From the NCBI GenBank assembly GCA_021404525.1, contig JAAWWE010000001.1, positions 124,001-188,000 of the forward strand: DNA of 64,000 bases, in the 5' to 3' direction. Every line of letters starts with the position of its first letter. Position 1 is the first letter of the stretch. The position numbers and the translations under genes are program-made. The notes beneath the pieces are model-generated. The model did no database searches. It was not told where the DNA came from and saw only the letters and a program-made list of their open reading frames with translations. Below are positions 49,505 through 51,200 of the stretch, piece after piece. Source of the DNA: Rhodobiaceae bacterium (GTDB lineage Bacteria > Pseudomonadota > Alphaproteobacteria > Parvibaculales > Parvibaculaceae).

Positions 49505-49537
49505 ACCAACAACACAGACCAAGAAGGAGACGTGAGC

Positions 49538-49951
49538 ATGACCGCTCAGCGTGGCAAAGACCTGCTGCTCAAAATTGACAGCGACGGTCTGGGGACTTTC
49601 ACGACCATGGCCGGCCTTCGGGCTCGAACATTGTCGTTCAATACCCGAACGGTAGATGTAACCCATGCGGAATCAGCTGGTGCCTGGAGAGAATTGCTCG
49701 CGGGCGCTGGGGTGAAAACCGCGAGCCTGAGTGGAAGCGGCATCTTTAAGGATGAGGCGTCCGACGCTCTGGTTCGAGGCTATTTCTTTGACGGCACCAT
49801 CCGCGATTGGCAGGTCCTTATTCCCGATTTCGGAACGGTCGAGGGTCCCTTCCAAATCACCTCACTAGAGTATGCGGGCTCCCATGAAGATGAACTCCGC
49901 TTTGACCTCGCACTGGAGTCAGCCGGACAACTTCTATTCACGGGTGCATAG
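49538..49951 (+). CDS. orfg9: GTA g9: major tail tube protein (TP901-1 family)
   Basis: A 137-residue tail tube protein of the TP901-1 type: AQRGKDLLLKI, the TRTVDVTHAESAGAWRELL block and the C-terminal beta hairpin. It polymerises into the non-contractile tail tube. The ATG at 49538 is eight bases after AAGGAG; an upstream GTG at 49532 is too close to that site. Confidence 0.9.
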   Translation: MTAQRGKDLLLKIDSDGLGTFTTMAGLRARTLSFNTRTVDVTHAESAGAWRELLAGAGVKTASLSGSGIFKDEASDALVRGYFFDGTIRDWQVLIPDFGTVEGPFQITSLEYAGSHEDELRFDLALESAGQLLFTGA

Positions 49952-49952
49952 A

Positions 49953-50354
49953 ATGGTGAACCGTCATCGCGGCGAAGTAGAGCTTAGGGCAGGCGACAAG
50001 GTCTACACGCTCTGTCTCACGCTTGGGGCTCTTGCTCACCTGGAATCGGTCTATGGCGGAGAAGATATCTTGTCCCTCGCAGATCGGTTCTCTCGCGGAC
50101 ACCTGACAAGTGCGGATGCGCTCAACTTGTTAGAGGCTGGTCTCAAAGGGGGTGGCCACGAATATGTCGACCTCGACCTTGAAAGTATGAGCTTTGAAGG
50201 CGGTGTGGCCAGTCTCATTCGCACGCTGGCGGATCTGCTGCGTGTGACATTTGGCGGGAGCGACGCAGCGGGTATTGAAGCAGCGGAAGCCAATATCAAC
50301 AGACCAGAGGAGGGCGGGGAAGATTTGCCCCCTTTCCCTGGAAGCCCCTCCTGA
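49953..50354 (+). CDS. orfg10: GTA g10: tail assembly chaperone, first domain
   Basis: A 133-residue member of the gene-transfer-agent family protein group, beginning VNRHRGEVELRAGDKVYTL after the Met. It carries the LGALAHLESVYG helix. It corresponds to the upstream chaperone G of lambda-like tails, which coats the tape measure. Codons near its end form the heptamer C CCT TTC (50330-50336), and the -1 frame beyond is homologous to the second chaperone domain, so a fused form is probable. Confidence 0.85.
   Translation: MVNRHRGEVELRAGDKVYTLCLTLGALAHLESVYGGEDILSLADRFSRGHLTSADALNLLEAGLKGGGHEYVDLDLESMSFEGGVASLIRTLADLLRVTFGGSDAAGIEAAEANINRPEEGGEDLPPFPGSPS
50330..50336 (+). other. Candidate programmed -1 frameshift site CCCTTTC
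   Basis: In the g10 frame the heptamer reads C-CCT-TTC, so both tRNAs can re-pair in the -1 frame as CCC-TTT. The -1 frame runs from here to the stop at 50537-50539 and encodes a recognisable tail chaperone segment that has no ATG, GTG or TTG start before its conserved core. This matches the conserved frameshift known from tail chaperone genes of many siphophages. Confidence 0.6.
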
Positions 50355-50539
50355 GCTTCGCCTGCGGTGGCTTGCGCTGGACGCCAGGCGACTTCTGGGG
50401 GGCGAGCTTATGCGAGCTGGAAGGCGCGGTATCGGCATGCGTTCCCGCCGCGGACGCCACAATGTCAAAGGGCGGCTTCAGCGGACTGATGGCGCGCTTC
50501 CCCGATAAACAGACAGGAACACAACCGAATGGAATTTGA
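50337..50539 (+). CDS. orfg10.1: GTA g10.1: tail assembly chaperone extension in the -1 frame
   Basis: About 67 residues encoded in the -1 frame of g10, starting PWKPLLSFACGGLRW and continuing TPGDFWGASLCELEGA, which matches the short GTA tail chaperone (PLPW...GxLRxxPxxFWxxxxxEL). No initiation codon lies between the previous in-frame stop (about 45 bp before the slip site) and the conserved core, so translation probably depends on ribosomal slippage. The expected fusion with g10 is about 195 residues. Its stop overlaps the start of the tape measure gene by 11 bp. Confidence 0.75.
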
Positions 50540-51200
50540 GAGTTTCGATGTGGCTGGCCTGTCGTCAGGCCTTCGGGGGATTCGCGCGGAATTCGACGCG
50601 GCGACAAATGCCAGCGGACGGTTGGGGAAAGAAGCAAAAAATGCATTTTCTGGCATCTCACGGGAAGGACAACGCGCATCCAGAACCGGCCAGGATTTGC
50701 ACCGGGCTCTGGGGACCGCCTTTGACGACCTGGTGGTCGGCGGGCGGTCCTTACAAGATGTCCTGAAGTCTCTCGCGGTTGATCTTGCAAAGCTGGCAGC
50801 GCAGGACATTTTTGGGACTGGGATTGGCGGCACGCAGCCAGGAACTGGTGGCTCCGTATTGGGGGATTTGTTCGGATCCATCCTGACACCGAACGCCAAA
50901 GGCAATGCGTTCGCCCAAGGGCATATACAGGCCTTTGCAAAGGGGGGTGTTCTGTCCAATCCGGCACTGTTTCCTTTGAGCAATGGTGTGGGGCTTGCCG
51001 GTGAAGCGGGGCCCGAGGCAATACTGCCTCTTGCGCGCGGGGCAGATGGAAAGCTCGGCGTGGCTTCACAGGACAAGACCCAAGCTCTCACCATCACCTT
51101 CAATGTGACAGCTACTGACGCGGCGAGTTTCAAGCGCAGCGAAAGCCAGATCGCCGCCATGCTCCAGCGCACAGTCAGTCGCGGCAACCGAAACCTTTAA
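50529..51200 (+). CDS. orfg11: GTA g11: short tail tape measure protein
   Basis: A 223-residue protein with a tape-measure core (LGTAFDDLVVGGRSLQDVLK, then AFAKGGVLSNPALFPL and GEAGPEAILPLAR). The C-terminal region after residue 150 matches the conserved GTA/phage end. It is far shorter than typical tape measures, consistent with the short tail of GTA particles. Confidence 0.9.
   Translation: MEFESFDVAGLSSGLRGIRAEFDAATNASGRLGKEAKNAFSGISREGQRASRTGQDLHRALGTAFDDLVVGGRSLQDVLKSLAVDLAKLAAQDIFGTGIGGTQPGTGGSVLGDLFGSILTPNAKGNAFAQGHIQAFAKGGVLSNPALFPLSNGVGLAGEAGPEAILPLARGADGKLGVASQDKTQALTITFNVTATDAASFKRSESQIAAMLQRTVSRGNRNL

Follow-up and report, generated by a model that had tools for sequence, protein, structure and literature searches.

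Sequence evidence for a probable programmed -1 ribosomal frameshift joining the two tail-assembly chaperone frames of an alphaproteobacterial GTA

In the GTA cluster of a Rhodobiaceae bacterium, the second of two tail-assembly chaperone frames, g10.1, has no start codon of its own, raising the question of how it could be translated. The analyzed stretch spans 64,000 nucleotides (hereafter, the window), and profile matches place a complete RcGTA-type head-tail cluster at approximately 42.4 to 57.1 kb, comprising terminase, portal, prohead protease, HK97-type capsid, connector and completion proteins, g9, g10, g10.1, g11, DUF2460, hub protein, NlpC/P60, and GTA_TIM megatron. The genes that mark an RcGTA-type GTA (GTA_TIM/Rcc01698, an RcGTA-type tape measure, DUF2460, NlpC/P60, an HK97-type capsid, portal, and terminase) are all present. 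As in lambda-type tails, two overlapping chaperone frames in a -1 relation lie between the tail tube gene g9 and the tape measure gene g11 (Table 1). Based on the frames, the heptamer in their overlap, the missing start, conservation of the junction, selection on the -1 frame, enrichment of Shine-Dalgarno-like elements, and the gene order, we consider it very probable that a programmed -1 ribosomal frameshift joins the two frames into a pair resembling lambda G and G-T. Separately, the ATG of g11 sits within the last codons of g10.1 (window positions 50529 to 50539), so initiation of the tape measure may be coupled to g10.1 translation.

Table 1. Features of the chaperone junction and its neighbors, in window coordinates
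Feature	Position	Strand	Family or profile match
g9, major tail tube protein ("V" position)	49532..49951	+	PF06199 / TIGR02126
g10, zero-frame tail assembly chaperone, 133 aa ("G" product)	49953..50354	+	PF11836 (3e-23)
Internal Shine-Dalgarno-like GAGGAGGG, -11.5 kcal/mol duplex, 15 nt upstream of heptamer	50307..50314	+	
Slippery heptamer C_CCT_TTC	50330..50336	+	
g10.1, -1-frame chaperone domain ("T" part), 67 codons plus stop, without start codon	50336..50539	+	PF09550 / rcc01693 family
Zero-frame stop TGA of g10, 15 nt past heptamer	50352..50354	+	
g11, RcGTA-type tape measure protein ("H" position)	50529..51200	+	NF058675 (score under its curated cut-off)

An earlier note on this DNA had placed a slippery heptamer, C_CCT_TTC, in the g10 frame, and codon-by-codon reading of the end of g10 (GAT TTG CCC CCT TTC CCT GGA AGC CCC TCC TGA) bears this out: the heptamer lies in the overlap and in g10's own X_XXY_YYZ phase, as in lambda. 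A second in-phase heptamer, T_TTC_CCT (50333 to 50339), overlaps it. TGA codons at 50276 to 50278 and 50537 to 50539 bound the open -1 frame (50279 to 50536), and the PF09550 match to this frame (8e-13) begins at residue 19, which is at the CCC TTT of the slip site, in line with the note's identification of the 67 codons as a second chaperone domain. The note had also stated that no start precedes the conserved core. Indeed, neither ATG, GTG, nor TTG occurs before the conserved PFPWKPLL in the -1 frame of the window, and no CTG or ATH was found when the same frame was read codon by codon. The computed slip product is 128 + 67 = 195 residues, matching the size of approximately 195 residues given in the note for the fusion.

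A g10.1 start conserved in relatives was the observation that the note had named as speaking against frameshifting. Instead, no g10.1 start was present in any of the seven genomes of the window's genus (counting its own), and all seven carry CCCTTTC, the heptamer whose conservation the note had proposed to check, unbroken at the same place, and the same is true of two other genomes of the family (G009 and G012). Most other genomes of the family (genus g5, a match to Parvibaculum sedimenti by sequence; L029 and L095) begin g10.1 with an ATG or GTG that overlaps the g10 stop or lies near it, and these carry no heptamer. In two loci of the window's genus (L002 and L003), just 3 codons separate the upstream opening of the -1 frame from the heptamer, and in L009, L105, L133, and L213 the distance is 1 to 2 codons; in these genomes, access to the second domain from g10 is confined to a few codons next to the heptamer. 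Taken with the reading of the window, this nearby closure of the -1 frame means that the second frame, as in lambda, has no independent start. It also bears on an alternative in which g10.1 is a separate protein, made from an internal start or through coupled re-initiation, with an unusual codon toward the end of g10 serving as the start. Other lineages do carry ATG, GTG, or TTG starts in the same -1 relation, and the AAACCCTTGA junction of several Rhizobiales also offers a TTG, but both the lack of any NTG or ATH codon before the conserved core in the window and the -1 stops only a few codons from the slip site in several relatives count against this alternative.

The same comparison addresses the concern that a frame-breaking mutation or a sequencing error separated the frames, leaving g10.1 decaying or misassembled. 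The C/T run at the site (CCCCCTTTCCC) is a plausible place for an indel, but this junction is shared by the seven genomes of the genus and recurs across many families. Purifying selection also acts on the -1 frame: dN/dS across the genus is approximately 0.31 for g10.1 read in the -1 frame and 0.13 for g10. This explanation is already contradicted, and we give it practically no weight. The form of g10 differs as well, since a median of 23 residues follow its domain in slip lineages versus 3 where g10.1 has a start (p = 1e-20); a 23-residue extension is the form expected of a fusion linker.

Going beyond the earlier note, which had mentioned neither the spread across the class, the other heptamer families, nor the upstream Shine-Dalgarno-like element, we surveyed the junction across the class in 222 loci (140 from unnamed GTDB genomes, 80 from named ones, and 2 from phage records), which yielded 199 distinct junctions, 182 of them with g10.1 in the -1 frame. 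Junctions were called start-less when no start was found within 45 nt of the core, and heptamers were counted as in-phase X_XXY_YYZ with X not equal to Y. An in-phase heptamer was present in 69 of the 75 start-less junctions versus 13 of the 89 with an ATG or GTG (Fisher p = 4e-25), and in many of these 13 the junction itself has a canonical heptamer, the GTG being incidental and farther downstream. Junction zones held 126 in-phase heptamers versus 12 off-phase (two phases pooled). With a background in g10 bodies of only 31 in-phase heptamers in 19,445 codons (0.0016 per codon), the occurrence of heptamers at start-less junctions is confirmed to be beyond chance. Six start-less junctions have no heptamer under the X-not-equal-Y rule, and one of these six has A_AAA_AAG, a type seen once in this first set.

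On a tree of g10 plus g10.1, a Pagel-type likelihood test favored the dependent over the independent model, with likelihood ratios of 53 and 62 under two start definitions (p = 7e-11 and 1e-12, respectively); the start state changes approximately 23 times on this tree, and a stricter independent-pairs test had only 6 to 8 pairs on supported branches. A held-out set of 60 new distinct junctions from another order, fetched after the rule was fixed, gave a heptamer in 26 of 29 start-less junctions versus 8 of 18 with a start (p = 0.0017). The 199 junctions, the tree, and the held-out set all support the note's proposal that a frameshift like that of lambda G/G-T would explain the missing start of g10.1.

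Several junctions depart from this pattern. The main class falling outside the heptamer-or-start rule consists of seven Rhizobiaceae loci (L115, L117, L121, L126, L129, L132, and L135) in which g10 ends in TCC or GAC followed by CCT TGA and the -1 frame has a TTG or a later GTG but no full heptamer; these may re-initiate at the TTG or slip in the P site only, at C_CCT ahead of the TGA. At L091, L152, and L240, C_CCT_TCC replaces C_CCT_TTC and no start is present, possibly representing eroded or P-site-only slip sites. In family f35 (L076, L078, L079, and L083), CCCTTTA or CCCTTTG lies at or near the g10 stop and overlaps an ATG or GTG in 3 of 4 loci, so that both routes could be available to a single genome.

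The recurrent heptamers are of three types: C_CCT_TTN in the window's family, Hyphomicrobiaceae, families f5 and f109, and others; A_AAC_CCY in many other Rhizobiales-type families; and the lambda-type G_GGA_AAG, with G_GGA_AAR/C found in several further families. One locus (L060, family f24) has three in-phase GGGAAAG heptamers ahead of the g10 stop. CCCTTTC is absent from the heptamers listed as most shift-prone in Escherichia coli, and its efficiency may therefore be low; G_GGA_AAG is listed there as highly shift-prone (PMC5009743). This diversity also bears on whether transcriptional rather than ribosomal slippage yields the fusion. Short homopolymers do occur at the site, but its runs are C5 and T3, bacterial slippage of that kind has been described on 9 A or T (PMC5009743), and the heptamers of relatives (GGGAAAG and AAACCCT) share only the tRNA re-pairing pattern and the phase; we regard a transcriptional origin as highly improbable. 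Where the PF.W motif overlaps g10, its proline codon is CCC in 44 of 44 cases versus 12 of 34 where the motif falls beyond the stop of g10 (p = 4e-11), which points to selection on the nucleotide sequence and not on the residues alone.

Upstream of the heptamer, the 8-mer pairing best with the 16S rRNA tail ends a median of 12 nt away (interquartile range, 9 to 15), and stimulation of -1 shifts by Shine-Dalgarno sequences has a spacing of 9 to 14 nt (PMC5009743). Pairing of -4.5 kcal/mol or stronger at 6 to 17 nt was found in 91% of CCCTTT, 91% of GGGAAA, and 80% of AAACCC junctions, versus 52% at the same threshold where g10.1 has its own start; relative to shuffles of the same bases, pairing was enriched in the slip class (p = 1e-7) and not in the start class (p = 0.59). 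In the window, GAGGAGGG ends just outside the 9-to-14-nt range, with purine-rich pairing continuing to approximately 6 nt. This upstream element would serve as the stimulatory element of a lambda-type site. A downstream stem-loop or pseudoknot was considered as the main stimulator and rejected: no significant structure was found 3' of the window's slip site (z of about 0), and across the class the signal was weakly negative (mean, -0.8), falling below -2 in 15 of 69 cases. Returning to a separately initiated g10.1, the Shine-Dalgarno-like element sits at frameshift spacing and not at start spacing, and the exact CCC codon is kept; we therefore consider separate initiation very unlikely and retain programmed -1 frameshifting as the preferred reading.

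How the site would work can be sketched from the sequence and from lambda (PMC5009743), the source of our assumptions on the occurrence of slippage, its rate, and its role in tail assembly. Most ribosomes would translate g10 to its stop and release the 133-residue "G" chaperone. At C_CCT_TTC, some would be strained by pairing of the 16S rRNA tail with the upstream element, and the peptidyl-tRNA-Pro on CCT and the tRNA-Phe on TTC would re-pair one base back on CCC and TTT, after which 67 further codons would be read to give the G-T fusion. If roles are as in lambda, the g11 tape measure would be coated by the G form, which is abundant, and the g9 tail tube protein would be recruited by the rare fusion.

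Frameshifting of tail chaperones is already known and is widely conserved, and "TAC" in the Pfam names of both families indicates that a chaperone role was already suspected. Our literature search found no report of a tail-chaperone frameshift for GTAs, although subscription papers may hold one, and the pattern seen across the class, a slip site or else a start codon, appears to be new. Parvibaculum and the presumed Rhodobacteraceae have their own starts and no such slip site, and the frameshift may have been missed for that reason. If correct, it would explain the start-less g10.1 of many GTA clusters and correct their annotation, which otherwise overlooks the second chaperone domain or assigns it a false start. 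It would also mean that a domesticated particle retains, under selection, phage-style production of two chaperone forms, and the start-state changes would provide natural replicates for asking where a G-T fusion is needed and where two separate proteins are enough. On balance, we lean toward a broader view in which frameshifted chaperones are the common state of alphaproteobacterial GTAs, using heptamers atypical for bacteria (C_CCU_UUN and A_AAC_CCU) driven mainly by upstream Shine-Dalgarno sequences, with repeated switches between fused and independent-start forms and with RcGTA being derived and unfused.

Among known systems, E. coli dnaX likewise combines a -1 heptamer with an upstream Shine-Dalgarno stimulator, but dnaX has a 3' stem-loop and shifts at about 50% (PMC5009743), whereas the window has no significant 3' structure. 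A phage collection gave three matches, and the two records examined (MW091529.1 and MW462191.1) have no annotated g10/g10.1 join. Both of these "Bacteriophage sp." records (L221 and L222, respectively) have GTA-like tail genes and AAACCCT TGA at the junction, with g10.1 annotated as a separate CDS with a downstream start. The +1 shift of Wolbachia WOStri was set aside as a precedent, as it concerns a hydrolase. RcGTA of Rhodobacter capsulatus shares the g10 and g10.1 families (PF11836 and PF09550 / rcc01693) and the gene order. RcGTA itself lies outside our loci, but family f19, whose FDW/LDW-type g10.1 sequences suggest that it is Rhodobacteraceae, has a g10.1 ATG or GTG in 30 of 30 junctions and a recurrent heptamer in 0 of 30 (one has a chance TTTGGGG); no frameshift is therefore expected in f19, and by extension RcGTA probably has an independent g10.1 start. 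The closest likeness is to lambda G and G-T (PMC5009743), which share with the window the two chaperone frames between tube and tape measure, the -1 relation, an X_XXY_YYZ heptamer late in the first frame, and a second frame without its own start; some GTA families even use lambda's G_GGA_AAG. Lambda's product ratio is 30:1, and the ratio in GTAs may differ from this figure because the RcGTA tail has only five tube hexamers and a tape measure trimer (PMC7296036). Unlike lambda, the particle here is a domesticated GTA; the heptamer of the window and its genus, C_CCT_TTC, lies outside the listed E. coli heptamers; and other GTA lineages replace the shift by an ATG or GTG start.
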